From a virus: a stretch of 21,771 bases of DNA. The stretch covers positions 1 through 21,771 of IMG/VR virus record IMGVR_UViG_3300030109_002779. One strand, 5' to 3'. The notes under the pieces were generated by a model. That model saw nothing but the letters and a program-made list of their open reading frames with translations. It was not told the DNA's origin and ran no database searches. Made by a program: the position numbers and the translations under genes. Positions within the stretch are counted from its first letter, which is position 1. Every line of letters starts with the position of its first letter. Of the stretch, positions 213 through 13,782 are shown piece by piece.

Positions 213-235
213 CTACTCCTGACTACGCTTGGTGC

Positions 236-351
236 GGGGGTGGCGAGTCTCTGCGTTGGGGGCGGAGGGGGCGTTATAGCGAAAAATTTCGTGGGGGGTG
301 TGATGATAATACAGAAATTAGCGCGGGCCGGCGCGCACCCCCGCCCCCCCC
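236..351. repeat. Opposed G-tract and C-tract island
   Basis: On the + strand G runs of 5, 5, 5 and 6 occur at 236-240, 258-262, 267-271 and 293-298. They are followed by C runs of 5 and 8 at 338-342 and 344-351. The G half could fold as a long-loop quadruplex, or the G and C halves could pair as an imperfect hairpin. Nothing comparable is seen elsewhere in the window. Confidence 0.6.
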
Positions 352-605
352 TGGCGTGATGTGCGCGTCGTGCGTCAATTTATACGGATTCGGGGACCGC
401 GATTGATTCAAAGTCAACTGTGGGTCCGCATTGATAGTGGGATTGCGGATTTTGTGCGCCAAGCGGGCCAACGATTCACGCGGATTTGCTTGGTGCGGAT
501 TGCGAGGTGCGGACCGTGTGGCCAACGCATCAACGCATCATGATATGTTGATACGTATGTACCGTAAAAACAGTGAACGGGGTTGAAATGAATTACTCCC
601 TCGGA

Positions 606-644
606 TTCCAAATATGGAACCGCATTTCCAAATATGGAACCGCA
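606..644. promoter_or_regulatory. Tandem 19-bp repeat with TTCCA/TGGAA palindrome
   Basis: The 19-base unit TTCCAAATATGGAACCGCA occurs twice without mismatch, at 606-624 and 626-644, at a 20-base period. Each unit contains an inverted repeat, TTCCA-AATA-TGGAA. Two palindromes two helical turns apart suggest a pair of operator sites for a dimeric repressor bound on one DNA face. The repeat itself is seen directly; its role as an operator is inferred. Confidence 0.55.
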
Positions 645-753
645 CCTGACGTTGGTTTGTTGTCCGCGATTCCCGCTTTAATCCGTTCACGCATCCATTT
701 TGGCAATCTCATATTTCATTGCGTTTGCTCAGTATCTATGCGGGTTGCAACAC

Positions 754-764
754 ATTGTTACAAT
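754..764. promoter_or_regulatory. Palindrome ATTGT-T-ACAAT, possible operator
   Basis: A perfect 5-bp inverted repeat with a single central T lies about 90 bases before the first early gene, and a further ATTGT half-site follows at 778-782. Related TGT-N-ACA palindromes lie at 9315-9328 and 11004-11015. A TATAGA at 785-790 could be a -10 box, but no correctly spaced -35 box was found. Confidence 0.35.
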
Positions 765-854
765 TATTGATTTGACTATTGTCGTATAGAGTGGTTTGTA
801 GTTTGGTATGCCGACGCAATGTCGCGGAGGCTCAAAAGAAAGAAAGAAATACAA

Positions 855-1109
855 ATGAAAAGCAATTACAGAAAAGCGTATAACAAACTTAAAAGTATAA
901 ACGCGCCTGTCGTCGAGGGCGGATGGAATGGAGAGGATACATTCCGCATCAGTGGTGAAAACAATGAAGATTCGATGATTTGGGCGGATTATTGGAATCA
1001 ATCGTTTGGCGACTTTGGCGTGAATCCTAAAATCTCAAATGTCCTTAATCAATACGGACTTTTTGCCGAGTGGATAAATGCGGGAGTCTTAGGCGTTTAC
1101 GATGCTTAA
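855..1109 (+). CDS. Hypothetical early protein, 84 aa
   Basis: I do not recognise this protein. It has a basic N-terminus (MKSNYRKAYNKLKS) followed by an acidic, Trp-rich body (GGWNGED, IWADYWNQSFGDFG) with no membrane segment or cysteine motif. It reads as a small soluble protein. I chose ATG 855 over the in-frame ATG at 819 because 855 follows an A/G-rich leader (AAAGAAAGAAATACAA) that closely resembles the leader of the next gene at 1140. The 819 start has no visible ribosome site and would place GGAGG inside the gene. It is the first gene of the rightward early block. Confidence 0.55.
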   Translation: MKSNYRKAYNKLKSINAPVVEGGWNGEDTFRISGENNEDSMIWADYWNQSFGDFGVNPKISNVLNQYGLFAEWINAGVLGVYDA

Positions 1110-1139
1110 CCAACCAACCAAAGAAAGAAAGATACTAAG

Positions 1140-1838
1140 ATGAAATTATTAACTAGCGGTAACGCCAAAATCGTGAAAGGCGAAAAATTCGGATACATGA
1201 CAAAGGGGATTCACTTTGCTCCCGCAACTTTGAGCGGACACAATGTGTGCGCTTGGGCTTCCCAAGGATGCGCAATGGCCTGTCTAAACACTAGCGGACG
1301 CGGAAAGATGCAATCCATCCAAGATTCCCGTATTGCCAAGACACAAGCATTCTTTGCGGACAAAGAGGGTTTCCTTTGCAACTTGGTAAAAGAGATTGCT
1401 AGCGCTTGCAAAAGCGCGGAAAAGAAAGGTTTAAGGCCGTGCTTCCGTTTGAATCTCACAAGTGATTTACCTTGGGAAAACATCCGTTGCCATGACGGAC
1501 AAACTATCTTTGAGAAATTCCCACAAGTGCAATTTTATGATTACACCAAAGGCTTTAAGCGCATGGAAAGATATCTAAACGGTAAGATGCCAAGAAACTA
1601 CCATTTGACATTCTCGCGCTCGGAATCGAATGACAAACATGCGCGCTTGGTTTTGGCTATGGGCGGAAATGTCGCTGTAGTATTTCGCAATGAGCTTCCC
1701 AAGCAATGGGAAACGAGAAATGTGATTGACGGGGATGAATCCGATTTGCGGTTCAAAGATCCGCAAGGATGCGTTGTGGGCCTTGTTGAGAAAGGCGATG
1801 CCAAGAAAGATTCAAGCGGATTTGTTGTAACCTTTTAA
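1140..1838 (+). CDS. Gp88-family phage protein, 232 aa
   Basis: This resembles the phage 'gene product 88' family, known from mycobacteriophages and other phages, whose function is not established to my knowledge. The N-terminal half has the family's cysteine-rich signature: NVCAWASQGCAMACLNTSGRG, with further Cys residues in LCNL, SACK and RPCF, and a charged RLNLTSDLPWE segment. The C-terminal half contains NYHLTFSRSESND and GGNVAVVFR. The clustered cysteines suggest a metal or Fe-S site; that is inference. It is preceded by the leader CAAAGAAAGAAAGATACTAAG directly before ATG, with no classic Shine-Dalgarno. It is the largest gene of the early block and the only one there with a recognisable family apart from the HTPGPW-type protein. 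Confidence 0.75.
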   Translation: MKLLTSGNAKIVKGEKFGYMTKGIHFAPATLSGHNVCAWASQGCAMACLNTSGRGKMQSIQDSRIAKTQAFFADKEGFLCNLVKEIASACKSAEKKGLRPCFRLNLTSDLPWENIRCHDGQTIFEKFPQVQFYDYTKGFKRMERYLNGKMPRNYHLTFSRSESNDKHARLVLAMGGNVAVVFRNELPKQWETRNVIDGDESDLRFKDPQGCVVGLVEKGDAKKDSSGFVVTF

Positions 1839-1851
1839 ACTACATTTGACT

Positions 1852-1944
1852 ATGAACTATGACATTCTAATACTAATTTTACCTTGGGTTTTCCCGCTTT
1901 GGATAATGTTTGCGGACTTATTTAGGAAAGGGGCGGACCAATGA
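1852..1944 (+). CDS. 30-aa membrane micropeptide
   Basis: An ATG at 1852 opens a 30-codon frame, MNYDILILILPWVFPLWIMF and then ADLFRKGADQ. Its first twenty residues are almost wholly hydrophobic and are followed by a basic tail, the pattern of a single-pass membrane peptide. Its stop codon overlaps the ATG of the next gene (ATGA at 1941-1944), as is usual in this operon, which supports it as a genuine translated gene. The function is unknown; such phage micropeptides often act on host membrane processes. Confidence 0.6.
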   Translation: MNYDILILILPWVFPLWIMFADLFRKGADQ

Positions 1945-2171
1945 TTCACGCAAAAGAATTTCCATTTGAGGAAATACGCAAACCATCAGGAGATTATTTC
2001 GATAGTTGGCAAGACGCAAAAGATCATGGCTATGATGATGAGCAAATATGGTCAGTGACCGTTCATGAGGATACCCATTGCTACGGTCCGCCTCATCACT
2101 TCGTTAATCATATTGGCCACATTGCGACAAAAGAGCGCCATGACGGCAAAACCTATTACGAAGAGACATGA
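1941..2171 (+). CDS. Hypothetical early protein, 76 aa
   Basis: I do not recognise a family. It is an acidic, His-rich protein (VHEDTHCYGPPHHFVNHIGH), with enough His and Cys for a possible metal site. Its N-terminus MIHAKEF is nearly the same as the next gene's (MIHAKDLF), at DNA level as well. A purine-rich site (AGGAAAGGGG) precedes ATG 1941. The start overlaps the micropeptide stop, and its own stop overlaps the next start (ATGA at 2168), so the three genes are probably translationally coupled. Confidence 0.65.
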   Translation: MIHAKEFPFEEIRKPSGDYFDSWQDAKDHGYDDEQIWSVTVHEDTHCYGPPHHFVNHIGHIATKERHDGKTYYEET

Positions 2172-2362
2172 TCCACGCAAAAGACTTATTCCCTATCGCG
2201 CTTGATCGTATCCACGATCACTTGGAGCGCGTCAACGCAAGCTCCGACAATCCTGAGACCAAGCGCAGGGGAGAAACGCGCAAGGCGGGCGGCCGTGAAA
2301 CGGCCCGCGTTAAGCGTAAGGAGAAACGCGCACGCGCAAAGCAACTAACATTTAACCTATAA
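2168..2362 (+). CDS. Hypothetical basic protein, 64 aa
   Basis: The N-terminal half is a short amphipathic segment (FPIALDRIHDHLERVNASS). The C-terminal half is strongly basic (TKRRGETRKAGG, RVKRKEKRARAK) and could bind nucleic acid. The coding DNA of the basic half is built on a 13-base direct repeat, GGAGAAACGCGCA, at 2270-2282 and 2320-2332, with a GC-rich hairpin around 2291-2305 between them, so the basic tail may have grown by short duplication. The start overlaps the upstream stop. No family is recognised. Confidence 0.5.
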   Translation: MIHAKDLFPIALDRIHDHLERVNASSDNPETKRRGETRKAGGRETARVKRKEKRARAKQLTFNL

Positions 2363-2385
2363 AACGAAAGAGAAAGATATATATT

Positions 2386-2583
2386 ATGAACATATTAGAC
2401 CTAGAGGAATCAAGTGCGGTGCTGTATCGCAAAATTAAAGAGAAGGGGCGCTTGTCTATTAGCAAGCTTTCATATTCTGAAATAATTGACGCAATGAAGC
2501 TTAACGATGAGGGGCTTATAAAGTTTGATAGAACCCGCAAAGGGAATGTATCGCGGTTTCTAGTAGTAAAGGGGGACGCATAA
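2386..2583 (+). CDS. Hypothetical early protein, 65 aa, possible winged-helix
   Basis: This is a small charged protein with the pattern helix (LDLEESSAVLYRKIKEKG), short strand (RLSISKL), helix (SYSEIIDAMKLNDEG), and two strands with a basic turn (LIKFDRTRKGNVSRFLVV). This order resembles a minimal winged helix, so DNA binding is possible. That is a structural guess, not a family match. It is preceded by an A-rich leader (CGAAAGAGAAAGATATATATT) like those of the genes at 855 and 1140. The next gene starts two bases after its stop. Confidence 0.55.
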   Translation: MNILDLEESSAVLYRKIKEKGRLSISKLSYSEIIDAMKLNDEGLIKFDRTRKGNVSRFLVVKGDA

Positions 2584-2584
2584 A

Positions 2585-2845
2585 ATGGAAGCGAAACATA
2601 AGCTTAAGGCTCCGCGATTCATACAACATAGAGCCGGAAGTATGCTCGAAATTGGTTCAAGTAATTCTGAAACCTTGCAAGGTGTTGCTCGGTTGGCCTA
2701 TGTGCAGGGGGCGCAGCAAGTGATTAGCATGATCAGGGAAAAAGCCGAAAAGAACGATATAAAAGGAATTGTTAAAATATTAATCGATGCAAAGTATAAT
2801 GACTTTTATGAGGAGATCGAAAACATGAGAGCGGAAGAGGTGTAA
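2585..2845 (+). CDS. Hypothetical early protein, 86 aa
   Basis: No family is recognised. The N-terminal third is basic and polar. The remainder is predicted largely helical: TLQGVARLAYVQGAQQVISM, then a long charged helix and an acidic C-terminus (YEEIENMRAEEV). There is no membrane segment. It is packed between neighbours, with start 2 bases after the upstream stop and the next ATG 1 base after its own stop, which supports it as a real operon member. Confidence 0.6.
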   Translation: MEAKHKLKAPRFIQHRAGSMLEIGSSNSETLQGVARLAYVQGAQQVISMIREKAEKNDIKGIVKILIDAKYNDFYEEIENMRAEEV

Positions 2846-2846
2846 T

Positions 2847-3263
2847 ATGAACGATACAAAAGAGAAACACGCCACACACACGCCAGGACCTTGGAGTCTA
2901 TCATGTATTGATGGAGTAAAAGATTCCCTCATGGTAGGGGGCGGAGATGATGGAAGCGATATTGTCGCGGATATCCGCACTTATGAGAATTACATCTTGG
3001 ATGTACGAGCAGATCATCAAAGCTTCGAGTGCAATACCCATGCACACAAGCGCTTGAGCGCAAAGATAGCGAGGCTTGAGAGAAAAGAGAAGGAATCATG
3101 GGCCAACGCGCGTTTGATCGCGGCGACTCCTGAGCTATTGGAGCAATGCAGGGAGTTCGAGAAATGCCTAACCTACTTAATCAATAGCGGGGATGGTGGA
3201 GCAGACCTGGAACGCGACAAACTCCGCAAGGTACTCGCCAAAGTAGACGGAGGTGAGGGATGA
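2847..3263 (+). CDS. HTPGPW-type conserved phage protein, 138 aa
   Basis: Two hallmarks identify this as the widespread phage/prophage family with an N-terminal HTPGPW motif (residues about 11-16) and a C-terminal helix of the form ANARLIAATPELLE (about 87-100), followed by a short helical end. The function of the family is unknown; it is typical of early regions of temperate phages. A charged helical insertion (HKRLSAKIARLERKEKES) lies between the motifs. A GAGGTG site precedes the ATG. Its stop overlaps the next start (ATGA at 3260-3263). Confidence 0.75.
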   Translation: MNDTKEKHATHTPGPWSLSCIDGVKDSLMVGGGDDGSDIVADIRTYENYILDVRADHQSFECNTHAHKRLSAKIARLERKEKESWANARLIAATPELLEQCREFEKCLTYLINSGDGGADLERDKLRKVLAKVDGGEG

Positions 3264-3445
3264 GCTACTTCAATGAGAAAGATCTAGAGCGGATTGACTT
3301 GGAGGATAAAATAAAAGACCTCGAAGCGGATCTGTACGAAAAGATACCCTTCAAGCGCTCGCAAGCGCATGTTCATGGGGATGATCAGGCATGGATTGAT
3401 GAGTGGGAGAAAGAGGTCGAGGCTGAACTAGAAAGGATGCGATAA
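3260..3445 (+). CDS. Hypothetical acidic helical protein, 61 aa
   Basis: A strongly charged, mostly helical protein (EKDLERIDLEDKIKDLEADL near the N-terminus; WIDEWEKEVEAELERM at the C-terminus) with coiled-coil character. No family is recognised. A strong ribosome site (GGAGGTGAGGG) immediately precedes its ATG, inside the upstream gene. Its stop overlaps the next start as TAATG at 3443-3447. Confidence 0.6.
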   Translation: MSYFNEKDLERIDLEDKIKDLEADLYEKIPFKRSQAHVHGDDQAWIDEWEKEVEAELERMR

Positions 3446-3771
3446 TGAGAAAGGAGAGACAATACAAATTCAACTACACCATTGATACGGCAGATTGGGG
3501 AAGTGGTTGCGAAATGGACAGAGAGAAATGCGAGGAAGCATTATCTGAATGGTTTGATAATCTCAGTCTGAAAACCAAGCTCGCCATTTACTATTCGCAA
3601 AAGTTATGCGAGACCGATGAGGAAATTGGCATTGATACAATGAACGAATGCCCGTGGAGCAAAATGGTTTGGGATGCAGAAATAAGGATAAAGGAAAAAT
3701 ATGCGCCTTACTCATTGAAAGTAAACGGTCACAATCTAAGCTTTTGGATAGAAAGCATTACCCATGACTAA
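3445..3771 (+). CDS. Hypothetical early protein, 108 aa, paralogue of the gene at 4818
   Basis: The function is unknown. It aligns over its length with the protein at 4818-5147. EKCEEALSEWFDNLSLKTKL-AIYYS pairs with EKCEKALGAWFEAQSINTQL-AIFYA, and ECPWSKMVWDAEIRIKEKY pairs with HCPWCKLMERARDDILKKH. The shared core is a long amphipathic helix, a variable loop, a CPW motif, and a second helix. The conserved Cys (EKCE, CPW) may be structural. It follows a short TAATG overlap with a preceding AAGGA site. Its last bases overlap the next small gene by eight bases. Confidence 0.65.
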   Translation: MRKERQYKFNYTIDTADWGSGCEMDREKCEEALSEWFDNLSLKTKLAIYYSQKLCETDEEIGIDTMNECPWSKMVWDAEIRIKEKYAPYSLKVNGHNLSFWIESITHD

Positions 3772-3889
3772 GCCAAACGAATCCGACACAATTGCGCGCC
3801 TGGCGTTGGGCCTTGTCATCTTTTTGGTGATGCGGTTCGCGCCCAAAGCGGTTGAAGCTTGGCAAAAGAGAAAGGAGAAACAAATATGA
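3764..3889 (+). CDS. 41-aa single-pass membrane protein
   Basis: This frame encodes MTKPNESDTIARLALGLVIF, then LVMRFAPKAVEAWQKRKEKQI. A polar N-terminus is followed by one hydrophobic segment (ALGLVIFLVMRFA) and a basic tail, giving an expected tail-inside orientation. It overlaps the upstream gene by eight bases, and its stop overlaps the next ATG (ATGA at 3886-3889), which fits the packing of the whole block. The function is unknown. A GGAG site for the next gene lies within its 3' end. Confidence 0.6.
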   Translation: MTKPNESDTIARLALGLVIFLVMRFAPKAVEAWQKRKEKQI

Positions 3890-4083
3890 GACCGTTTTAT
3901 ATCTTATTTCGCCACAATAAACCAGGAGAGAAAACACGGTTTTCCATTTGGAAAGAGTACGATGATAGCAAGATATGGGATTCACCTACGAATGAAGTAA
4001 TCGAATATTATAAAACAAGAAAAGAAGCTCAGAATGCTTTAGCTTGGCAAAAGCGCCAAGATATGAAAGGAGAAATGCGATGA
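3886..4083 (+). CDS. Hypothetical early protein, 65 aa
   Basis: This is a small, Tyr- and Lys-rich soluble protein (MRPFYILFRHNKPGEKTRFS; later EVIEYYKTRKEAQNALAWQK) that reads as strand-turn-strand followed by a helix. I chose ATG 3886 because it sits in an ATGA overlap with the membrane protein stop and has GGAGAAA ahead of it. A longer frame from 3859 would overlap the upstream gene unnecessarily. It ends in ...EMR-stop, with that stop overlapping the next start. The same end-start junction sequence recurs at 4806-4824. Confidence 0.6.
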   Translation: MRPFYILFRHNKPGEKTRFSIWKEYDDSKIWDSPTNEVIEYYKTRKEAQNALAWQKRQDMKGEMR

Positions 4084-4565
4084 GTGTTAGTTATGGACAA
4101 TCAGGATATGTAGGCACATCAAGAAGTGTACGCTCTTACGAAGCGTTGCAGGATGGTAAACTTGTACCTAGCGAAATGGTCAAACATTTGCGAAAGAAGA
4201 AACTATTCAAGGGAGTCAAGGCAAGTGACTTGAATAAAGCTTGCCAAGGTTGCGAATGGCATCATGTCGGAACCTATGCTCAGGCAGTTTTGCACTTGGA
4301 CATGTTTGATATTTACGAAAACCGTCAACAGATCAGGCATGAAATAAAGGCAAGGCAGTTAATCAAACCAACTGAATTTATAAAGGAAGTTGAGTGGACT
4401 GAGTGGGAAGGCCGATCACGCAATTACATGAGACCTGTAAAGTACCAAGCAAAGTGCAGGGTAACGAGAAAGGGGGGGACCATGGTCACGCTTCAAATCA
4501 TCGAGAAAGGGAAACCATCCGGGGAACCATTTCGCAAGAAAGAATCGAACCTGAGATATCTCTAA
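4080..4565 (+). CDS. Hypothetical early protein, 161 aa
   Basis: No family is recognised. The protein is basic, with a Ser/Tyr/Gly-rich start and SEMVKHLRKKKLFKGVKASD. It then has a Cys/His cluster, C-x2-C-x2-HH (KACQGCEWHHVG), which could bind zinc, and a C-terminal half rich in strands (MRPVKYQAKCRVTRKGGTMV). ATG 4080 is chosen from its ATGA overlap with the upstream gene and the GGAG site eight bases before it. The stop overlaps the next start as TAATG at 4563-4567. Confidence 0.6.
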   Translation: MSVSYGQSGYVGTSRSVRSYEALQDGKLVPSEMVKHLRKKKLFKGVKASDLNKACQGCEWHHVGTYAQAVLHLDMFDIYENRQQIRHEIKARQLIKPTEFIKEVEWTEWEGRSRNYMRPVKYQAKCRVTRKGGTMVTLQIIEKGKPSGEPFRKKESNLRYL

Positions 4566-4807
4566 TGGTTTTTGATCCTGACTCTTGGGAAAGTAAGTTT
4601 CCTAAATTTCTCATTGGTGACTCTCCAGGCAGGACTTTTGTTATTCATCTTCACCGTCCAAGATTTGTGGCAGAACTTATCGAGGATGGTGAAGATGAAA
4701 CCTTCGAACCTTCTTGGATTGATGAACCGCCATCTGATGCAAGTTATCTTTCATCCTTAATGCGTGAAGCGGGTGACTTTTACATCGAAGAAATTGAAAG
4801 GGAGTAG
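4565..4807 (+). CDS. Hypothetical acidic protein, 80 aa
   Basis: A very acidic protein (ELIEDGEDETFEPSWIDEPP, then a C-terminal EEIERE) with one possible strand segment (RTFVIHLHRPRF). The strong negative charge would fit a DNA-mimic or inhibitor, but nothing else supports that. ATG 4565 is chosen because it forms a TAATG overlap with the upstream stop. Longer readings in this frame back to 4403 would run antiphase inside the previous gene. Confidence 0.55.
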   Translation: MVFDPDSWESKFPKFLIGDSPGRTFVIHLHRPRFVAELIEDGEDETFEPSWIDEPPSDASYLSSLMREAGDFYIEEIERE

Positions 4808-4817
4808 GAGAAATGCG

Positions 4818-5147
4818 ATGAGTGAAGGCACAAAGCAATTGAAAGTTATCTACCAAGTTGAAACTTCCGACATAAAGGAACAGGATCTCAAGCAGGCCGA
4901 GAAATGCGAGAAAGCATTGGGTGCTTGGTTTGAGGCACAAAGCATTAATACGCAACTTGCAATTTTTTATGCTTACACATCTTTGGATGTTATTGATTTC
5001 AATAAGTTTGATATTCTTGAGCATTGCCCTTGGTGCAAACTTATGGAGCGGGCGAGAGATGACATTTTGAAAAAACACATGCCTAAAGGAGTATACGATG
5101 CGAAATCGAATTTATTTCTTTATCCGATCAAAGTAACTTGTCGCTAG
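4818..5147 (+). CDS. Hypothetical early protein, 109 aa, paralogue of the gene at 3445
   Basis: The function is unknown; it is the second member of a duplicated pair (see the gene at 3445). It shares the EKCEKALGAWF...TQLAIFYA helix and a CPW motif, here CPWCK with an additional cysteine. Its 19-base leader, from AGGAG through the ATG to the second codon (4806-4824), is identical to the leader of the gene at 4080. It carries a free-standing two-codon frame, ATG-CGA-TGA (4813-4821), overlapping the true start. It is the last complete gene before the early terminator. Confidence 0.65.
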   Translation: MSEGTKQLKVIYQVETSDIKEQDLKQAEKCEKALGAWFEAQSINTQLAIFYAYTSLDVIDFNKFDILEHCPWCKLMERARDDILKKHMPKGVYDAKSNLFLYPIKVTCR

Positions 5148-5280
5148 CTTCGACACTTACCGCGAACATGTCGAAGGGTGGATCTTTCATAAAGATATAC
5201 CTAACACACAAGCAATCTCCATAGACCCCCTTAAAAAGCGTTTCGTTGCGTATCCATACTACCAACGATATAATTTCTAA
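5137..5280 (+). pseudogene. Start-less ORF remnant with protein-like C-terminus
   Basis: After the stop of the previous gene, a different frame reads from 5149 as FDTYREHVEGWIFHKDIPNT, then QAISIDPLKKRFVAYPYYQR-YNF, ending in TAA at 5278-5280. The composition is convincingly protein-like, but the frame opens at a TAA (5134-5136) and contains no ATG, GTG or TTG. I infer the 3' end of a gene whose 5' part was lost by deletion or replaced by the duplicated neighbour. Expression by frameshift from the upstream gene is an alternative, but no slippery site is evident. Confidence 0.45.
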
Positions 5281-5281
5281 A

Positions 5282-5321
5282 AAGCACGATTAGGTACCTC
5301 TATGCGTCTCTAATCGTGCTT
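5282..5321. terminator. Bidirectional terminator between converging operons
   Basis: A perfect 11-bp stem, AAGCACGATTA (5282-5292) with TAATCGTGCTT (5311-5321), encloses an 18-base loop. It is flanked by A-rich sequence on the left and a T-rich stretch on the right. It lies between the rightward early genes and the leftward replication operon, where a terminator serving both is expected. Confidence 0.8.
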
Positions 5322-5340
5322 CTTTGTATTCATTTGTAGT

Positions 5341-6612
5341 TCAAAACGACACAACCTTACGCTTATCATCATTTAACCTGCTCGGAACGTGGGCCGAAAA
5401 TCGGCCAAGGTTCTTGCGAAACTCTAAGGTAGTCACGCCCTGCTCTCCGTTTCGGTTCTTTGCGACCTCGCAATTGATGAGTTCATCATCATCCTTATCA
5501 GGAGAAAGGAGCAGGACCGCATCCGCATCTTGTTCGATGGAACCCGATTCTCGGAGATCCGACAGTGCGGGTTTTCGCTTCTGTACTTCAAGCGCTCTGT
5601 TGAGTTGAGAAAGGGCGAGGACTGAGGTTTGATACTCCAACGCCAATGTCTTCATGGTACGAGAAATCTCGGAAACCTCTTGGGTGCGTGAGTCATACCC
5701 TTTCGCGGAGAGTAGTTGGAGGTAATCCACCACTACGAGTCCAAGCTCACCTTCGAGTCTCTGTTGTGCGAGAAAGGCGCGGAAACTCTCAAGGGTAGCT
5801 TCGTGATCATCCTTGAAGGTAATCGGCCATACCTTGATGCGTTGAGCGGTCTCCGCGAGTTTCTTCTTTGCGATGTGGTCCATTGAATCCTTCATGGTTG
5901 GGCGCGGGACTCCGCTCACATTCGTGAGCAATCGCCCCGCACACTCGGACGCTTTCATCTCAAGACTTGCATAGGATGTTCGCTTACCGTACTTCGCGGC
6001 TTCGTGGGTAAAGTGAATCGCTAATGCGGACTTCCCGATTCCGGGTCTCGCGGCTAAAACATATAGGCATCCCTCGCGGAATCCTCCATTGAGTAAACTA
6101 TCCAATCCTTTGAACCCTGTGGATATTGCGGAGACTCCGCCTGCATCGATTGCCAGGTACTCCGCTTGTGCTTCCGTTACCGCATCTCGGATATGCGTTT
6201 GGCCCTTTCTCTTGGAAAGAGACTTGGCCACGCGGGTTGTGAAGGCGGAGGCCACATCCTCTGCGCTCTTGGTTGGATCGCGGACTTCGTCCTGGGCGTG
6301 AAGGATTGCCTGCTCCACCGCCTTGGCGTTTCTTTGCTCGATTACCTGATCGATGTAGCGATCTATCTGTCCACCTCCGTATTGCTCGGATATCTCCGTA
6401 ACCTCAGATGCGAGGTCAGGTAATGCGATCATCACATCCACCTCATTCACATCCGGGGAATGCTTCGCAATGGCTGAGAAGATTTGCTGACGGGTTGGAG
6501 AGGTGAAGTCATCTTCGGTGAGATGCTCCAGGGCGATGGCCGAGGATCGGCCCGACTCATCGCGCATGGAAGCTGAGAGAACTGCAATCTCTGCTAAAGA
6601 GAAATCAATCAC
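5341..6612 (-). CDS. dnaB: Replicative DNA helicase, DnaB family
   Basis: This is the hexameric 5'-3' fork helicase. An N-terminal helical domain (FSLAEIAVLSASMRDE, FTSPTRQQIFSAI) is followed by the RecA-like core: Walker A in ARPGIGKSALA (about residues 185-195), SLEM, Walker B in LGLVVVDYLQLL, LSQLNRALE, and the late DnaB motif SDLRESGSIEQDADAVLLL. The length (about 423 aa) is slightly short of cellular DnaB. I prefer GTG 6612 to GTG 6633. The former overlaps the upstream stop (GTGTGA) and has GGAAGG at a usable distance; the latter has no site. It is the last gene of the leftward replication operon, directly after the probable helicase-recruiting protein. Confidence 0.93.
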   Translation of the reverse strand: MIDFSLAEIAVLSASMRDESGRSSAIALEHLTEDDFTSPTRQQIFSAIAKHSPDVNEVDVMIALPDLASEVTEISEQYGGGQIDRYIDQVIEQRNAKAVEQAILHAQDEVRDPTKSAEDVASAFTTRVAKSLSKRKGQTHIRDAVTEAQAEYLAIDAGGVSAISTGFKGLDSLLNGGFREGCLYVLAARPGIGKSALAIHFTHEAAKYGKRTSYASLEMKASECAGRLLTNVSGVPRPTMKDSMDHIAKKKLAETAQRIKVWPITFKDDHEATLESFRAFLAQQRLEGELGLVVVDYLQLLSAKGYDSRTQEVSEISRTMKTLALEYQTSVLALSQLNRALEVQKRKPALSDLRESGSIEQDADAVLLLSPDKDDDELINCEVAKNRNGEQGVTTLEFRKNLGRFSAHVPSRLNDDKRKVVSF

Positions 6613-7070
6613 ACTCTTTTGACGCCTTCCCACTCATCACGCTCTTGGGGTACTCGCTCTTTGATCCAACCGCGACATGCGTTTCGGAAGGTTGCGTTCC
6701 AATCAGCTTGGACATGTCCCTTACCCTTGGCCCAATCAACGAATAACTGAACAGCAAGCTCATGGTTTAATCCTTCCTCTTGGGTAATGCTTTTGGGTGG
6801 ATCGAAGTTATCTGAGATTGTTGTGCCTTTTTTCTTCCGAGGCTTGGAATTGGATTTGCCGCTTTTTGTGGAATCATCGCTATATATAATATTAATATTC
6901 TTGGAAAGAATATGTTGCGCGCGCGAGGGATGCCACAGATACTCCACTAGAAGTGGAGTTATGGTGGAAACTGCGTTTGTTCCAAATGACTCGCAATATT
7001 GCTTCAAAGCATCCGAAATCCACCTCGGAATCTTGAGTCGTAACTCCACTTTTTCGTCCCGTTTATCCAT
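6609..7070 (-). CDS. Replication protein: ribbon-helix-helix N-terminus plus DnaT-like C-terminus
   Basis: Residues about 6-45 (KVELRLKIPRWISDALKQYC and the following helix STITPLLVEYL) have the strand-helix-helix pattern of ribbon-helix-helix DNA-binding proteins. A basic, low-complexity linker (KSGKSNSKPRKKKG) follows. The C-terminal segment, LAVQLFVDWAKGKGHVQADW with NATFRNACRGWIKE, resembles the ssDNA/helicase-contact tail of DnaT- and phage replication-type proteins. It ends inside the helicase start. I infer an origin-binding or helicase-loading factor. Both domain calls are by eye. Confidence 0.6.
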   Translation of the reverse strand: MDKRDEKVELRLKIPRWISDALKQYCESFGTNAVSTITPLLVEYLWHPSRAQHILSKNINIIYSDDSTKSGKSNSKPRKKKGTTISDNFDPPKSITQEEGLNHELAVQLFVDWAKGKGHVQADWNATFRNACRGWIKERVPQERDEWEGVKRV

Positions 7071-7186: not shown

Positions 7187-7516
7187 CTATTCTTCCTTCC
7201 ATGTTTTGTTATTAAGGAGAGCCACCAGGTCACTTAATCGACAGGTGAACATACTCTCCGAGTTACTTCTTCTGTGAATGACGCACGGGGGTTTGTCTCC
7301 TGCGTCTGAAATTGCTTGGCTGAATGCTGAATAGAGATCCAACCTTTCGACCCTTTTAGCTTCTATATGAAACGGAAACTCCTCACTGACCACATCAGGG
7401 CTATCCCCGCCACCGGAGAACTGTTGTCCTCGGCGGCTAGGGAAGCCATTATCTGATAGGTAGTTTGCTAGTTCTCGCTCGTATCGCTTGCCCTTATTAC
7501 GACTCAGCTTGCCCAT
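7187..7516 (-). CDS. Holliday junction resolvase-like PD-(D/E)XK nuclease (Hjc type)
   Basis: The order of motifs fits an Hjc-type resolvase. There is KGKRYERELANYL with the first acidic residue, a Gly-rich QQFSGGGDSPDVV with the catalytic Asp, and HIEAKRVERLD with the E-x-K pair, then a Gln/Ala helix (YSAFSQAISDA) and a CVIHRR strand. At about 109 aa it has the expected size. It would cut four-way junctions produced by replication or by the recombination proteins upstream. I take ATG 7516, six bases after GAGG, over the GTG one codon earlier. Confidence 0.75.
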   Translation of the reverse strand: MGKLSRNKGKRYERELANYLSDNGFPSRRGQQFSGGGDSPDVVSEEFPFHIEAKRVERLDLYSAFSQAISDAGDKPPCVIHRRSNSESMFTCRLSDLVALLNNKTWKEE

Positions 7517-7706
7517 CACAATCCTCTTCGAAGGTTATGGTCACATCCCCGTCAGGATCGTGGTCCAGGCAACGCTTCTCCATCAAAGCCACCATTTGCT
7601 CAAGGACTGCGACTGCTACGATGACCGCACCATTAAAGTTCGAATCGTCGATGTGTTCCTTCGCAAAGTTCACACCCTTTCTAAGTCTTTCCACCTTCTC
7701 ATTCAT
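7497..7706 (-). CDS. Hypothetical acidic protein, 69 aa
   Basis: No family is recognised. It has a helical body (NEKVERLRKGVNFAKEHI, then GAVIVAVAVLEQMVALMEKR) with an acidic C-terminus (DHDPDGDVTITFEEDCDG). The ATG at 7706 forms an ATGA overlap with the exonuclease stop, so I prefer it to the upstream TTG. The 3' end overlaps the resolvase gene by 20 bases. Its position suggests an accessory role in recombination. Confidence 0.6.
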   Translation of the reverse strand: MNEKVERLRKGVNFAKEHIDDSNFNGAVIVAVAVLEQMVALMEKRCLDHDPDGDVTITFEEDCDGQAES

Positions 7707-8680
7707 GCCACATCCCTTTCGTTTTCGTTGTACCAACGCATAGCATTCGCAAAGTCTGCCATATCGATGGTTTGTTTTCTGCCCATTTGCCTGACCTCTA
7801 ATTGGTAGGCTTCTATGATTTTATAAACATAGGTTCTGCTGACCTCGAACTTCCTAGCGATGTCGGAGATCGACAAACGGTTGAAGTTATTGCTCAGATC
7901 GAGGATCTCCACGGACTCGGAATATCCCGGCCAAACCTTGTTCGAAACACATTGTGTCCATAACTGACAAGCCCGTCTCATATCCTCACGGTGACGCTCA
8001 ATATCCGCACCCCGCAAGGTGTAAACCCCAATATTGTAGGGCGGTTTCTTCTCAACAGCGACGAAGATAAATTGCTTCGGAGAGTGACCCAATCTGCGTA
8101 ATCCCTCCATATAGAAGCACGCTTGAAAGTCGTAGCCAAACTGCCTAACGCTCTTGGCAAATCCTTTCTTGCTCGCATCCTGTGTACTCTTTAAATCCAT
8201 CACCACATCCGCGCCGGGCAGATAGTAATCGGGTCTCACCTTGCAGTCCGCACCCTCGCATTGAAAGAATCCCGTCCCTTCGATAACCGAATCCACTTCC
8301 GCCAGGTATGCACTAACCACAGGGTGGTCCAGGCATGATGCCGCCATTTCCATGCAAGTGTTGTATTCACTTGAGTTGAGCCATTGGCGCTCAGGATACT
8401 CCGCTTCAATCTCTGCTAATGCTTCCTTGTATGCATTGGTTCTCGGCCCATTACCGTCGATCTCGTTAGGCTTTTCTCCGAACTCATAATCAAGCTTCTC
8501 AGGCTCTAAAACTGCCGTGTGAAAACACCCGCCCATCAAAAGGGCGGATGTTTTCGGTGACGGATTATCCATGTTGTGCTTAACATGAGCAGGGGAAGTC
8601 TTGAGCAGAGCAGACGCAGTACTCCGAGATAACTCAGGAGAGGCGTGATACGCCTCGTTGCTTATGTCTGTTCTTAACAT
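7703..8680 (-). CDS. RecE/exonuclease VIII-like PD-(D/E)XK exonuclease with C-terminal helix-turn-helix
   Basis: The first ~250 residues match the RecE-like phage exonuclease family. They show an N-terminal YHASPELSRSTASALLKTSP, then MGGCFHTAVLEPE, then VRPDYY with the acidic ligand, VVMDLKST with D-x-K (about residues 147-165), and the Q-x3-Y helix QACFYMEGL. Such enzymes resect dsDNA 5'-3' for annealing recombination. Unusually, residues about 265-325 add a helix-turn-helix (RLSISDIARKFEVSRTYVYK) and a second short DNA-binding-like segment (QMGRKQTIDMADFANAM). It is flanked by the SSB-like and resolvase genes. The start overlaps the SSB stop (TGATG). Confidence 0.85.
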   Translation of the reverse strand: MLRTDISNEAYHASPELSRSTASALLKTSPAHVKHNMDNPSPKTSALLMGGCFHTAVLEPEKLDYEFGEKPNEIDGNGPRTNAYKEALAEIEAEYPERQWLNSSEYNTCMEMAASCLDHPVVSAYLAEVDSVIEGTGFFQCEGADCKVRPDYYLPGADVVMDLKSTQDASKKGFAKSVRQFGYDFQACFYMEGLRRLGHSPKQFIFVAVEKKPPYNIGVYTLRGADIERHREDMRRACQLWTQCVSNKVWPGYSESVEILDLSNNFNRLSISDIARKFEVSRTYVYKIIEAYQLEVRQMGRKQTIDMADFANAMRWYNENERDVA

Positions 8681-9297
8681 CAGAAAGGGGTATCTTCGTC
8701 GTCCAAGGTTGGAGCTTGGTCCATCTTAGGCGCAGGTTTAGGTTCCAACTTAGGCTCAGGCTTGGGTTGCTCCACCTCCGCAAAGGGGTCTCCTGATTCG
8801 TACAGAGCATTGAGGTTTACCACGGTATCTATTGATACTTTTCGCTGTTCCTCGGACATCTTTTTGTGCGGCTTCGCAACCATCGCATAAGAGGTTTCCA
8901 ATCCCTCACCGTTGCGGATGATATCAATGTCGTATGCTCTTGGATCTCCCCAATCCGGGTCTTCGCAGTAGCTGACCAAGGAATCCTTCAGAGTCTTTTG
9001 CGTAATCTCAAGGACTTGAACCCGCTCTTCTGCGTAGTTGTAAACTTTCATAGCAAAGAATTCCTTCGGCTTATCCTCGAAGCTACCTGGAGCTTCCTCA
9101 CCTACTTTCCAACGGTATGGCTTGCGTCCTCCGTCCTCGTTAGTTCCCCAACCGAGCATTCCGGTTATGAATCCACCATCGTCCTGAGATCCCACGATTC
9201 GGAAACTATTCTTTCCTTGTTGTAGCTTCATATAGCTACCTCCACTACCATTACCGCCCGTTTCAGGCGCTCGCGTTATATTATTTAAGAATGACAT
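8680..9297 (-). CDS. Single-stranded DNA-binding protein, phage type
   Basis: The protein has a Gly-rich N-terminus, a strand-rich core (MKLQQGKNSFRIVGSQDDGG, EFFAMKVYNYAEERVQVLEI, SYAMVAKPHKKM) and a Pro/Glu/Lys linker. It ends in the acidic tail LDDEDTPF, the classic SSB C-terminus that docks partner proteins. There is no OB-fold signature I can prove by eye, but the architecture and the position directly ahead of the exonuclease fit a phage SSB. It opens the replication operon. No clear Shine-Dalgarno precedes ATG 9297; the leader is A-rich. Confidence 0.75.
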   Translation of the reverse strand: MSFLNNITRAPETGGNGSGGSYMKLQQGKNSFRIVGSQDDGGFITGMLGWGTNEDGGRKPYRWKVGEEAPGSFEDKPKEFFAMKVYNYAEERVQVLEITQKTLKDSLVSYCEDPDWGDPRAYDIDIIRNGEGLETSYAMVAKPHKKMSEEQRKVSIDTVVNLNALYESGDPFAEVEQPKPEPKLEPKPAPKMDQAPTLDDEDTPF

Positions 9298-9314: not shown

Positions 9315-9328
9315 TAGTGTTGACACTA
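9315..9328. promoter_or_regulatory. Palindrome over a -35-like box between divergent operons
   Basis: TAGTGT-TG-ACACTA is a perfect 6-bp inverted repeat. A TTGACA hexamer on the + strand (9320-9325) falls inside it, facing the ribbon-helix-helix gene at 9359. Its -10 partner is weak (around 9343). The SSB operon runs the other way from 9297. A repressor bound here would control one or both directions, the neighbouring regulator being the obvious candidate. Confidence 0.45.
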
Positions 9329-9358
9329 TTTGTAGTTTATTGATTTAAGCTTAGAACT

Positions 9359-9553
9359 ATGAAAGAAAATACAACGAAACCATTATCCCTTCGCTTCTCA
9401 CCCAAAGTCCGTAAGACTATGAAAGAATTATCAGAAACAAGTTATATCCATCAGGCCCAACTATTTAATGTTGTGATGACAGCGGCTTGTGAAGCAATCG
9501 CCAAGAATGATCACAAGATTTCTCTACCGTTAAAGTTTGAGATCGTAGACTAA
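9359..9553 (+). CDS. Arc/CopG-like ribbon-helix-helix regulator, 64 aa
   Basis: The sequence PLSLRFSPKVRKTMKELSET, then a helix HQAQLFNVVMTAACEAIAKN, has the strand-helix-helix layout of small ribbon-helix-helix repressors, with the strand LSLRF as DNA-contacting ribbon. The size is typical. It is transcribed away from the replication operon, with a palindrome (9315-9328) just upstream, which suggests autoregulation and control of the divergent SSB-first operon. No Shine-Dalgarno is evident before ATG 9359. Its last 89 bases overlap a possible antisense gene. Confidence 0.7.
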   Translation: MKENTTKPLSLRFSPKVRKTMKELSETSYIHQAQLFNVVMTAACEAIAKNDHKISLPLKFEIVD

Positions 9554-9668
9554 TCAGGTCTGCAATCAATTCGTCAATCTTTACGATTGTCGGCGCTTCA
9601 CTGATGACTGTGACGCACTCTCCTCCTGCGTACTCTATTCGCATTCCATTCATATCTATTGTATCCAT
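9465..9668 (-). CDS. Possible small protein overlapping the regulator's 3' end, 67 aa
   Basis: The N-terminal 45 residues are protein-like: MDTIDMNGMRIEYAGGECVT, then an Ile-rich amphipathic helix (IVKIDELIADLISLRSQ). The last third is antisense to the regulator gene and less convincing. The ATG directly follows AACTACAA, one of four copies of a motif found only outside the main genes. The call is supported by composition and by the otherwise empty interval 9554-9668. It may still be spurious. Confidence 0.4.
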   Translation of the reverse strand: MDTIDMNGMRIEYAGGECVTVISEAPTIVKIDELIADLISLRSQTLTVEKSCDHSWRLLHKPLSSQH

Positions 9669-9724
9669 TTGTAGTTGCCTTTCTACTAGTGATTCTAGGG
9701 GTTTATGTTTGGTTGATTAAGTTC

Positions 9725-10813
9725 CTACCGTGATGCCACGATAGTAGGAAGCCCCGAATATATCTTGGCGGTCATCTCAATCGATTTATGACCCAAAACC
9801 TTACTCGCGGCGTAAATACTATTTCCGTTCGTTCTCATGGTCCTGTCTCCTGCATATTTGCGGAGCCTGTGTACCGGACGATTGTCCGAGACCCCGCATT
9901 CGTGTCTTAAAAAATATGGAAAGTCGCGGACAATCCGGTCCTTGGATGCTTCAATGATGTATTCATCGTTGCCCCGCAAACTCAGAACCTCATTCCACCA
10001 CCAAGGGTCACAGCAACGGTCCTGGTACTTTCCCCCGCTCTTAGGATTGTGGATGCGGATGAGCTTGTTTCCATTCATATCATCAAAGAGGTCATCATAC
10101 TTTGCCCTAAGAATCTCGCTTGAGCGAAGGCCGAGTCCGTACGCTAATGCGTATGCTTTGTATAATTCAGGGTCTGTATACTTCAGTGCTTCGCATTTTA
10201 ACTCAATACGGTCCCGCTCGGAACCCATTGGAATGAATGCCTCAACCTCGGTGGACTCCACAGTCAGGGCAATCCAATTCGCAAACCAAGTGGTGTCGAT
10301 TCCCATCCTCTTATAATAGGAAATCCATCCCTTGCTAAAAAGGCTTCGGGCCTGACGCATGTTATTTGCACCCTTCTCTCCGTAACGAATGAGATAATCC
10401 TCGCAGATCGGAGTCCCGTTTCCGGTTTTTTTTGCAAACATTCTTATATCGTGTGCGCCAACATCTATATCGTATTCCTCAAGGATAGGCACACAGCGAT
10501 TTACATTGTTTTTCTTAGTCTGCCCGTTCGCCTGTTTTTTTTGTACTAATTTATTGCCCTTATAAATTTCAAACAATTCACTTATCAGGGGAACAATGCG
10601 ACCCATTCGCCTGTCGAGTTCCTCAACGGCGGCAATCGGGGCCATACGGGCCGCTTCGTTGGGGTCTGTCGTATTCAAGGACTTGCGAATCCTTTCTGTC
10701 CCGAAATAGATTTCTACATAGAAAAATCCATTGCGGGAATAAGTGTTATATTGGGGTGTGTCCTTTTCCTTTATAAAGGTGCTTGGAGTGATGCAAGAAT
10801 TTTTTTTACTCAT
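9725..10813 (-). CDS. int: Tyrosine recombinase (phage integrase)
   Basis: This enzyme catalyses site-specific integration at attP. The catalytic set is visible: Arg in YGLGLRSSEIL (about residue 231), His-x2-Arg in RPVHRLRKYAGD (about 314), His in VLGHKSIEMT (about 339), and the nucleophile Tyr in AKIYSG (about 352). The N-terminal part has a strand-rich arm-binding-like start (YNTYSRNGFFYVEIYFGTER) and a core-binding helical region. The length of 362 aa is normal. The gene lies next to the tRNA-derived attachment site, which is upstream of its start. Confidence 0.92.
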   Translation of the reverse strand: MSKKNSCITPSTFIKEKDTPQYNTYSRNGFFYVEIYFGTERIRKSLNTTDPNEAARMAPIAAVEELDRRMGRIVPLISELFEIYKGNKLVQKKQANGQTKKNNVNRCVPILEEYDIDVGAHDIRMFAKKTGNGTPICEDYLIRYGEKGANNMRQARSLFSKGWISYYKRMGIDTTWFANWIALTVESTEVEAFIPMGSERDRIELKCEALKYTDPELYKAYALAYGLGLRSSEILRAKYDDLFDDMNGNKLIRIHNPKSGGKYQDRCCDPWWWNEVLSLRGNDEYIIEASKDRIVRDFPYFLRHECGVSDNRPVHRLRKYAGDRTMRTNGNSIYAASKVLGHKSIEMTAKIYSGLPTIVASR

Positions 10814-10867: not shown

Positions 10868-10913
<46 letters not shown>

Positions 10914-11121: not shown

Positions 11122-13782
11122 TTAGTCCTTACCTCTAAGTTGGTCAAGCCTTTGTTTCCTGATCTTATCCTTACCTGCACCCACTCTCCAATATAAGTCT
11201 TTACCGAAAACAGGAATGAAGCGAATAAGCTCCTGGCTTTGTTTCTCAATTGCTTTACCTACATCGGGATTACTTGACATAGGTTCAGCGGCAACCTTGA
11301 AGGCTTCATTAACAATTGGCATTGGAGGAAGTAATAAAGAAGCAACAAATCCACCAAGTCCATCACTCTTTCCTTTGTAGATCGAATACCTTGAAATACC
11401 TGTCATTTGTAAGGCAGTATCCATCAACTCATCAGGTATGCTCACGGGTCGGCCTAGAGCTAAATCCTTTGTTACATTAACTGCTGTCGTGCCACCTCCA
11501 AAAAGCATGGCAAAACGGATTGCGTTTTGAACTCCTTCCTTAGTGGTTTCTCTCTTGGCAAGTTTTTTTAGAATATCTTCACGCAAGACATCCAATTGCT
11601 TAACGAAAAAAGTTTTCAATGAATAAGCCAATCTACCTCCTTTCATCTTTAGATACTGTTCCGGCATCTCCGAAAGGGTGATTGGTTGTGTCTTAGTTAG
11701 TCTGCTAAATAAATAATGTTTTACATTTTCGTTTTGTGAATCTCCCCGTCGGATCGCATCTACTAGGTCATCGGTTTCGTTTTGGAAAAAAGGCTTATTC
11801 TCTTCTACGAAATCTTTATATGCCTTTGAGTTTTTATTTTTAAGTTTCGACTGAGCCTGTCTAAATGCACCTCTCAAATTGTTTTCTTTCAAGGCAACAT
11901 CAAGGTTTTTGAAACCTGTCATCTTAAACAATGTATCCATTGTTTTTTTCATCTTTCCGGCATCCGCAAAATCTGCACCAATATCATTAAGTCCAAAGTC
12001 TTTGAGTTTAATTTTCGGCCCGAATGGTGAGACTGTGTTGATTAAGCCATTACGATATGCGTTAAGAGCAAGATCCCCTAGTTGGGTAATAGTGGAGTAT
12101 GGATTGACGATTGTACTAGCATAAATCGCATTTCTTATTCCATTGGTGGCTCCGCTTATTCTTGCTTCACCTCCATCGAATCTCTGCTTAAGCAATCTTG
12201 TCGCTTCATCTCCCGCCTCGTCATCACTTATGCGAGCAATATCCTCAAATATACTTCTTGCATTTGGGTCAGTCGATTTTCCAAGGAATCGGTTTTTTTC
12301 TACATTGTATGTTACATTATCAACATACTTTTGTAGTCCTCCAAGGAAGTCATCGTAAAATTTTTGAGTATCTTCCGTAATGGTGGCAAGTGTGCGCTCT
12401 TTTTGTAATCCCATCTTACCTCTGCCACGCAAGTTGTTTCCTTCAAAGAAATCCTGAACAACTTTTGATTTTTCTGCACTTGTTAAAGATGTGTCTGTTA
12501 AGGAAGCTGTTTGTTTCATTTTCTCAGGCAAATCATCAAACTTCTTTTGCTCTGCTTGCCTAATCATTTTCTTCAACTCGCCTTGTGGTTCAACTCCGAG
12601 GGATTTCAAATACCCTTCGTGATCCTTCATAACGCGCGGCAAGTAATCCTTGCGGTACTCGATATCTATACCATTCCTGTTGGCACTTTCATACAAGTCA
12701 TCAAGGCTATCCCTGACCGCTAAAAAGTTCTCTTTGATTCCATCCATGCCAGGTTCCTTTTGCACCCTATCAAGCATTTTGTAAGCTTCAGGCATGGTCT
12801 CAGAATTACTTGTAAGTCTTTGAAATAGGTTTTGTTCGTTCCTTTTTAGTTTTTTAAATTGCTTTGCGAATGGCTTGATACGCTCTGCAAAGTCTTGCTT
12901 GGCCATCAATACATCTAGTTCGAAGCGGTCTAATCTACTTGCGACAAATGGATCAATCTCCTTCAGTTTTGTTTTTATTGGTCGTATGTACTTATCTGTC
13001 GTAGCCAATGTTTTATCTATCGCACTAAAAGTTTTATTTACCGCAGGAACAATTGCTTTATCTGCGAGCTTAACTCCAAGTTTTGCAAATGCACCACCTA
13101 CTGAACCCTCTGCTAGGTTCTTGAGTTTACCCGTCAGAATGGTGTCTGTGTCTTTTTTCTGCAATGGATTCTCAAAACCTGCTTCTGCGACTGCATCCGC
13201 CAATCCTTTTTCATCTGATGCCAATGCAATAAACTCAGTTATTCCCGCACCTGCGGGTAAGCGTAGTGCTTTGGGTACAGCTTGTACCACCTTTGCAACT
13301 TGTGGAAGTTTACTAATTGCAGTAACTCCTGCTCCAACGGGTGCAAGTTGACCTGCAACTGTTACTATGTCCTTTGTGATAGACTCGTCGTATTGCTGTG
13401 GTGTAATCCCCTTAGTCGCACCTATTAATGCCCTACCCTTGGCAACAAAACCTTCATCAAAAGGATTTTTTACATCCTTTCCAAGGAGTTGCATCCCTGA
13501 ACGATAGAGTTCGCCAACCGTGCCAACCAATCCAAAAGCAATCTCATGCTTCTTTTTCTCCAACTCATAAACCATAGACTCGTACCAGGGCGTATTGTCT
13601 ATGCGTTCTTTGAGATCGGGGGATACGGGCGGGGTGGTTGGAATATCTACTTCCAATAAAGAAGAGAATTTACTTTCGGATTTAATTTCTGAATCAAGAT
13701 TATCATCTGAAAGTAAAGCACTAAACTTACTCGGCCCTTGAGTATCAGTTTCTTCTTCAAGCAATGCGCTGAATTTTGACAT
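11122..13782 (-). CDS. Large internal virion (ejection) protein, 886 aa
   Basis: No family is recognised with certainty. The N-terminus carries three copies of SKFS(A/S)LL (residues 2-8, 18-24, 37-43) separated by acidic spacers. The rest is mainly helical, with a hydrophobic/Gly-Ala region (SKLPQVAKVVQAVPKALRLP; TEFIALASD) near 160-190 and another (NAIRFAMLFGGGTTAVN) near 750. It is the last gene of the virion operon, following two other large virion-type proteins. This corresponds to the position of the largest ejection protein in podoviruses. No lytic transglycosylase motif was found. Confidence 0.55.
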   Translation of the reverse strand: MSKFSALLEEETDTQGPSKFSALLSDDNLDSEIKSESKFSSLLEVDIPTTPPVSPDLKERIDNTPWYESMVYELEKKKHEIAFGLVGTVGELYRSGMQLLGKDVKNPFDEGFVAKGRALIGATKGITPQQYDESITKDIVTVAGQLAPVGAGVTAISKLPQVAKVVQAVPKALRLPAGAGITEFIALASDEKGLADAVAEAGFENPLQKKDTDTILTGKLKNLAEGSVGGAFAKLGVKLADKAIVPAVNKTFSAIDKTLATTDKYIRPIKTKLKEIDPFVASRLDRFELDVLMAKQDFAERIKPFAKQFKKLKRNEQNLFQRLTSNSETMPEAYKMLDRVQKEPGMDGIKENFLAVRDSLDDLYESANRNGIDIEYRKDYLPRVMKDHEGYLKSLGVEPQGELKKMIRQAEQKKFDDLPEKMKQTASLTDTSLTSAEKSKVVQDFFEGNNLRGRGKMGLQKERTLATITEDTQKFYDDFLGGLQKYVDNVTYNVEKNRFLGKSTDPNARSIFEDIARISDDEAGDEATRLLKQRFDGGEARISGATNGIRNAIYASTIVNPYSTITQLGDLALNAYRNGLINTVSPFGPKIKLKDFGLNDIGADFADAGKMKKTMDTLFKMTGFKNLDVALKENNLRGAFRQAQSKLKNKNSKAYKDFVEENKPFFQNETDDLVDAIRRGDSQNENVKHYLFSRLTKTQPITLSEMPEQYLKMKGGRLAYSLKTFFVKQLDVLREDILKKLAKRETTKEGVQNAIRFAMLFGGGTTAVNVTKDLALGRPVSIPDELMDTALQMTGISRYSIYKGKSDGLGGFVASLLLPPMPIVNEAFKVAAEPMSSNPDVGKAIEKQSQELIRFIPVFGKDLYWRVGAGKDKIRKQRLDQLRGKD

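Follow-up and report, generated by a model that had tools for sequence, protein, structure and literature searches.

We find that one group of uncultured viruses encodes a RecE-like exonuclease that carries, behind a complete nuclease body, a small C-terminal domain of the winged helix-turn-helix (HTH) type. The tail is present in all 171 tail-group loci, representing 96 distinct proteins, among the IMG/VR matches listed; several of these loci share contigs, and the sequence studied here is counted together with its copy, L007. The tail is under purifying selection comparable to that on the body, and the group seems, from a quick tree of the nuclease bodies only, to have gained it once and kept it. 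The usual view of resection exonucleases is that any duplex end will serve as their substrate. An exonuclease fused to a domain of the site-recognising type, never lost in our sample, raises the question of whether end resection can be directed to selected DNA, and the arrangement suggests an exonuclease steered to particular DNA.

Nuclease body, tail and gene cluster

The stretch of DNA analysed, referred to here as the window, is a linear virus contig of 21,771 bases, and the features discussed below are collected in Table 1. The first-pass annotation had placed the exonuclease reading frame at 7703-8680, a position that stands; the strand, which it had left unstated, is minus. The reading frame abuts the SSB-like gene upstream and overlaps the start codon of the next gene, and thus sits within one gene cluster. 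On the minus strand the order of this cluster is SSB-like protein, exonuclease, a small protein of no named family, a resolvase-like protein, a 153-aa protein and a DnaB-like helicase. As far as the contigs reach, gene order is largely common to the tail-bearing loci, and runs from the integrase through the opposite 64-aa ORF, SSB, exonuclease and small genes to the resolvase, an initiation-like protein and the helicase.

Table 1. Coordinates of the exonuclease, its parts and its neighbours in the window.
Feature	Position	Strand	Basis
RecE-like exonuclease with fused C-terminal winged HTH, 325 aa	7703..8680	-	ORF list and profiles
PD-(D/E)XK exonuclease body, residues 4-264	7889..8671	-	PF12684, PHROG exonuclease VIII and RecE 3h4r (sequence and fold)
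Linker, residues 249-266, overlapping the body end	7883..7936	-	pLDDT 34-52 in full-length model
Winged HTH, residues 267-318	7727..7882	-	AF2 models; HTH profiles; fold matches to Xis, RacA, TerS and MerR
Putative recognition helix, residues 282-291 (RTYVYKIIEA)	7808..7837	-	R282 in 78/78 distinct coding sequences
Wing, residues 296-306, conserved basic tip	7763..7795	-	K/R at 302 in 72/78 coding sequences
SSB-like protein, directly upstream in operon	8680..9297	-	PHROG single-strand DNA-binding families, E 3.8e-8 and 1.5e-6; synteny
Small protein of no named family, after exonuclease	from 7497	-	Cluster order
Resolvase-like protein	7187-7519	-	Cluster order and profile matches
153-aa protein, weak primosomal match	6609-7070	-	Cluster order and profile matches
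DnaB-like helicase	5341-6633	-	Cluster order and profile matches
64-aa ORF, opposite strand, between integrase and SSB	9359..9553	+	Same place in most loci with enough flank
Tyrosine integrase	9725..10813	-	PF00589, 32.1 bits; PHROG integrase, E 9.4e-20
Candidate attP core resembling a tRNA 3' end, beside integrase start	10868..10900	-	Read from the sequence; attP role putative

The sequence beside the start of the integrase gene is a probable attP core; ARAGORN detected no complete tRNA there. The 64-aa ORF has no family match in Pfam or PHROG; its product, judged by eye, is likely a ribbon-helix-helix regulator, and it is at least as good a candidate for the regulator of the operon as the exonuclease tail. 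An exact 10-base repeat, ATTTGTAGTT, flanks this ORF on both sides (9328-9337 and 9667-9676). Elsewhere in the window, positions 1140-1838 of the plus strand encode a PF17338 (GP88) family protein (E 8.5e-50), and positions 11122-13782 of the minus strand encode an 886-aa protein that matches nothing in 50,697 phage records at E 1e-3, nor in the PHROGs; close relatives have a weakly similar or dissimilar gene at that place.

The body of the protein was identified by sequence and by fold. PF12684 matches residues 27-261 (E 7.4e-33; 114.7 bits against a cut-off of 26), the PHROG exonuclease VIII family matches residues 4-264 (E 1.1e-72), and a phmmer comparison with Escherichia coli RecE (3h4r) aligns residues 9-253 (E 7e-11). 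The full-length AF2 model (14 sequences; mean pLDDT 74.7) retrieves 3h4r as its first Foldseek match in the PDB, with an E of 6.4e-9, a probability of 1.00 and a TM-score of 0.65 by target length. The residues R149, P150, D151, D162, L163 and K164, which we take to be the catalytic PD-(D/E)XK residues, are invariant in a 14-row alignment and align with those of RecE. The claim of the first-pass annotation that the PD-(D/E)XK exonuclease body is complete is thus borne out, and membership of this family points to a 5'-3' duplex exonuclease activity.

In the full-length model the tail (residues 268-318) is composed of a strand, two helices, two strands and a further helix, with block-mean pLDDT values of about 76-87, and it appears as a separate high-confidence domain behind a low-confidence linker. 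When the tail of about 63 residues was modelled alone (32 sequences), the mean pLDDT rose to 89.8. The elements are a helix at 271-277, a helix at 282-291, wing strands at 296-299 and 302-306, and a last helix at 307-318; the helix-turn-helix, two-strand wing and C-terminal helix of the MerR/Xis type are therefore all seen in the tail models. This structure prediction, which had been proposed as a check, agrees with the earlier suggestion of an excisionase- or MerR-like DNA-binding-type domain after the nuclease, as do the fold and profile matches described below. The same annotation had described two tail modules, SISDIARKFEVSRTYVYKII and MGRKQTIDMADFANAM; in the AF2 model these form one winged HTH, the second being the wing and last helix of the same domain.

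Profile matches of the window's own tail are weak. HTH_23 scores 21.8 bits on the whole protein and 24.6-25.4 bits on the tail alone, marginal against a cut-off of 24.6, and HTH_17 scores 15.1 bits, below its cut-off of 27, which is exceeded in two of 13 records (G008 and G009). Among 18 divergent tails, at E<=0.1, HTH_23 and HTH_28 each match 17 and HTH_17 matches 16; phrog_66 (excisionase and regulator) matches two of the 18 at E<=0.01, and the tail in two of the 13 records. Within the tail family, identity to the window's tail is 32-61% in a 32-row alignment, and on this basis the HTH similarity exceeds chance. In a Foldseek search with the tail, the first match is Xis of mycobacteriophage Pukovnik (E 0.029, probability 1.00); BldC and the excisionase RdfS rank just below it. 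VIA-align Z values are 7.4 for pSK1 Par, 7.2 for a packaging-redirecting protein, 7.0 for RacA, 6.3 for both SoxR and Pukovnik Xis, 5.3 for gpNu1, and 6.5-6.9 for the terminase small subunit family. These values are middling and in the range of common arrangements, and a common fold proves no function. The fold and the conserved basic residues of the recognition helix and wing are consistent with a tail that binds duplex DNA, in which the helix 282-291 would read the DNA.

Distribution, selection and inheritance of the tail

Relatives were collected from IMG/VR in three rounds with tail-bearing queries, taking the best 80 of at least 500, at least 579 and 164 relatives, respectively; relatives between the tailed and tail-less groups may be absent from this sample. 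The new loci of the third round (best 80 of 164 relatives) were all tailed. The search for other exonucleases with this tail, which the first-pass annotation had advised, yielded in all the 171 loci given above. Outside the group the tail profile was absent from 97 sampled relatives, including 11 hits in one-per-species GTDB genomes; together with L029, which is cut before the tail, these make up the 98 loci without a tail match. The best-matching homologues from cultured phages align up to about residue 262-275, and those extracted end there (one of these, L013, was read from an internal point). In most homologues without a tail, no more than about 20 residues follow the body. Since these proteins stop near the body, and since the linker is modelled at low confidence, the tail appears to be separate from the nuclease fold; packing of the tail into that fold in all homologues, the outcome that had been named as fatal to a separate domain, did not occur. 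One further RecE-like exonuclease, L183 (447 aa), has a different C-terminal extension of about 196 aa, without a match to the tail profile.

A quick tree of the nuclease bodies (104 rows, 32 of them tailed), which left out L183, near-copies and all proteins that were incomplete or shorter than 245 aa, places the tail as one change with an SH-aLRT of 100. The tail was found attached to the exonuclease wherever the upstream part of the locus was readable, and not as a separate small protein as excisionases are. A tail-only scan of IMG/VR, with 40 loci kept, located 38 of its matches inside the exonuclease reading frame; of the other two, the match in L283 comes behind exonuclease-like sequence whose frame is shortened, and L308 starts within the tail at a contig edge. 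The profile gives a single match per record in 13 of 13 records, on the exonuclease, and no tail detached from an exonuclease was found in these records or among the tail-only IMG/VR matches listed.

In 209 pairs of tail-group coding sequences that are moderately diverged at synonymous sites, the body has a dN/dS of about 0.115; the value for the tail is 0.10 to 0.17, a range that depends on the treatment of saturated pairs. R282, F310 and A313 are identical in all 78 coding sequences. The mean net charge over 91 loci is +4.6 for the tails and -6.1 for the bodies; the window's own tail carries only +1. The possibility that the tail is translated by itself, from a start codon inside the gene, was considered and rejected: a start with a Shine-Dalgarno-like word occurs in eight of 91 loci, within the control range of 3 to 27 of 91. 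A fusion with a neighbouring HTH gene, as in L012, was also set aside, the 66-aa protein after the exonuclease appearing by eye to be a different HTH type. In 42 of 91 loci, the window not among them, a separate gene of 70-95 aa ending in WLID or WLVD lies just after the exonuclease (L088, L104, L083 and others); the L088 form weakly matches an HTH family and phrog_66, and the L104 form has no match.

The trees of neighbouring genes were compared for their fit to the tail. In the window's subclade (25 loci) the deltaL of the tail is 5.1 on the tree of its own body, 45 on that of the integrase, 61 on SSB and 75 on the 64-aa ORF; here the tail is inherited with its own nuclease body. The sister subclade (20 loci) gives another order, with 81 for the integrase, 111 for the 64-aa ORF, 133 for the downstream gene, 247 for the body and 316 for SSB. 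Because the downstream gene also fits the tail better than the body or SSB does, part of this signal is body exchange. A subset of 12 loci gives nearly equal fits of the tail to the trees of the integrase, 64-aa ORF and body (deltaL 3.2, 4.2 and 7.5). Among 117 close-backbone pairs, the tail correlates with the 64-aa ORF (r = 0.92) and the integrase (r = 0.89), and in a distance regression over 51 loci the 64-aa ORF has the strongest effect on the tail (0/1000 permutations); this permutation test is too lenient, with the controls p79, exoN and SSB reaching 0/1000, 1/1000 and 2/1000. Nucleotide profiles show that L087/L088 and L024/L100 differ mainly in the exonuclease body and that L096/L103 differ mainly in the integrase-to-ORF block and the tail, whereas L096/L100, a counterexample to covariation, have the same integrase/64-aa ORF type and different tails. 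Covariation of the tail with the integrase and 64-aa ORF, strong in the sister subclade, absent in the window's and judged in part by too lenient a test, was therefore rejected as a general rule. We read the sister-subclade data as a few body exchanges, which are compatible with, and no proof of, a link between the tail and the integrase region.

Some tailed loci have no integrase region. In L006 and L017, SSB and the tailed exonuclease come immediately after a long upstream gene, without the integrase or 64-aa ORF (locus coordinates 1756-5384 and 71-3384), which represents a natural deletion or absence of the two genes. The records of L006, L015 and L017 (34.8, 17.0 and 17.6 kb; they may be fragments) contain no integrase match and keep the tail. 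A homologous integrase is present in nine of 12 records; the other three are tailed, and PF00589 matches none of these (0/3), which may be fragments. In the L006 group the tail has diverged more than the body from that of the L018 contig (0.54 against 0.17-0.18), and is at low dN within the group.

Possible roles of the tail

Shared-word searches of the control regions in the window and 46 loci yielded no candidate tail-binding site above chance. One word, TTTAGTGT, occurs twice in the window, once in the attP region and once in the gap upstream of SSB; it was discarded, as 0.65 occurrences are expected and 18 of 100 shuffles reach two. A general shared site was likewise rejected across the 46 loci, where the longest word common to both regions is mostly no longer than in shuffles; in four (L053, L057, L073 and L075) the observed length is reached by at most two of 60 shuffles. 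By eye, words like AACTACAA recur in the gap between the 64-aa ORF and SSB in many members of the window's subclade; the L006 group, where the 64-aa ORF is missing, seems to have none. We attribute these words to the product of the 64-aa ORF or its promoter rather than to the tail.

We propose, tentatively and at slightly less than even confidence, that the tail is a tether or loader of the nuclease on phage duplex DNA, probably with a sequence preference. A 5'-3' duplex exonuclease of the RecE kind would carry the MerR/Xis-type winged HTH on a flexible linker; the winged HTH would bind duplex DNA and so tether or load the nuclease on phage DNA, and resection by the SSB-exonuclease pair would start or stay preferentially on the phage's own ends or sites. 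The sequence preference of the tail and the location of its site are guesses. A function exerted together with the nuclease is favoured because the tail is constantly attached, is inherited with the body in the window's lineage and is retained in loci without the integrase region. The lack of a site counts against the tether, as do the low charge and marginal HTH score of the window's tail; so does the tail's going with the integrase and 64-aa ORF in the sister subclade, which a pure nuclease tether does not predict. This last pattern, in which the integrase and 64-aa ORF trees outperform those of the body and SSB, speaks for a regulatory tail, carried by the nuclease and comparable to Xis, Cox or Cro, that would bind at the integrase and attP, or else between the 64-aa ORF and SSB, and would control excision or early operon expression. 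Such a role would also suit the resemblance to Pukovnik Xis and RdfS, the position of the integrase and probable attP just upstream of the cluster, the covariation among close-backbone pairs with the L096/L103 differences, and the observation that 11 of 13 records have no HTH_17 match besides the tail (G007 and G010 each have one more, weak). We nevertheless hold it to be rather unlikely: L006, L015 and L017, in records that may be fragments, keep the tail with neither integrase nor 64-aa ORF at the locus, the tail of the window's subclade follows its own body, and in the sister subclade the downstream gene also beats the body and SSB trees. Moreover, the permutation test passes the control p79 equally well, L096/L100 share an integrase/64-aa ORF type and differ in tail, and the separate small gene of 42 of 91 loci weakly matches an excisionase family in some of its forms.

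A winged HTH can, in addition, function in contacts between proteins. A protein-interaction module of the Red-beta C-terminal domain type, contacting the exonuclease or SSB, would fit the position of the exonuclease gene directly downstream of the SSB-like gene, and excerpts of two papers describe small C-terminal HTH-like or three-helix domains of annealing proteins that contact lambda exonuclease and probably SSB (PMC8093625, PMC9512822). We consider this role unlikely, given that the modelled tail shows a wing and a basic recognition helix as in the MerR/Xis domains that bind DNA, that no Red-beta-like domain is among the fold matches listed, which may miss one, and that of the five trees compared in the sister subclade the one for SSB fits the tail least well. 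That the tail is an artefact or neutral read-through, as the marginal HTH score of the window might be taken to indicate, is extremely improbable in view of the 96 distinct tailed proteins, the purifying selection and the confidence of the tail-alone model. A further reading, site-directed resection, which we regard as doubtful, would have the winged HTH recognise a sequence in the integration/early-control region of the phage (attP or the gap upstream of SSB), coupling end resection and the excision/lysogeny decision in one polypeptide; recombination that exchanges the body would then leave the recognition domain matched to its region. The tether or loader, as proposed above, is the reading we prefer. 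If the tail is sequence-specific, it would be a useful recombineering part; if it is only a tether or protein contact, the protein is a modest variation on RecE. With only about 63 residues and a high-confidence prediction, the isolated tail is easy to assay.

Comparison with known systems

No description of an HTH-tailed RecE-like exonuclease was found in the titles and abstracts listed by searches of open-licence PMC papers; the parts are known, and none of these titles and abstracts describes a viral lineage in which they are consistently fused. The parts are known neighbours, since Phage_integrase, HTH_17 (excisionase) and DUF3799 occur together within about 10 kb around whiB in cluster T mycobacteriophages, according to an excerpt of PMC8612146. 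The same excerpt describes phage Ku-Lsr2 fusions, and annealing proteins with an extra C-terminal HTH are described in part of PMC8093625. As presented there, both likewise join a DNA-end or annealing protein to an appended DNA-binding or HTH-like domain; they differ from the window's protein in that the partner is an annealase or Ku, not an exonuclease, and in the appended domains themselves.

The E. coli RecE protein (exonuclease VIII, 3h4r; PF12684 = DUF3799) has the same nuclease body, with the motif positions R149-P-D151, D162 and K164; unlike the window's protein, its aligned domain stops at the end of the body, without a winged HTH tail. The partner gene also differs from the E. coli RecE system, being SSB-like in the window, where no annealing protein was seen in the operon. 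The RecE-like exonucleases of the cyanophages S-H1, KBS-S-2A and S-CBS1 have bodies about 33-36% identical to that of the window; at about 261-269 aa these proteins stop just after the body, whereas the window's is tailed. For the tail, the DNA-binding domains of terminase small subunits (7lwr, gpNu1 1j9i), RacA and pSK1 Par have a similar fold (Z 5.3-7.4) and belong to proteins with functions different from those of the exonuclease. Pukovnik Xis (4j2n), RdfS (8dgl) and BldC (6amk) have the same order of helices and strands and the same size (Foldseek E 0.029-0.07, probability 0.97-1.00); these are separate small proteins, whereas the domain in the window is fused to a nuclease.
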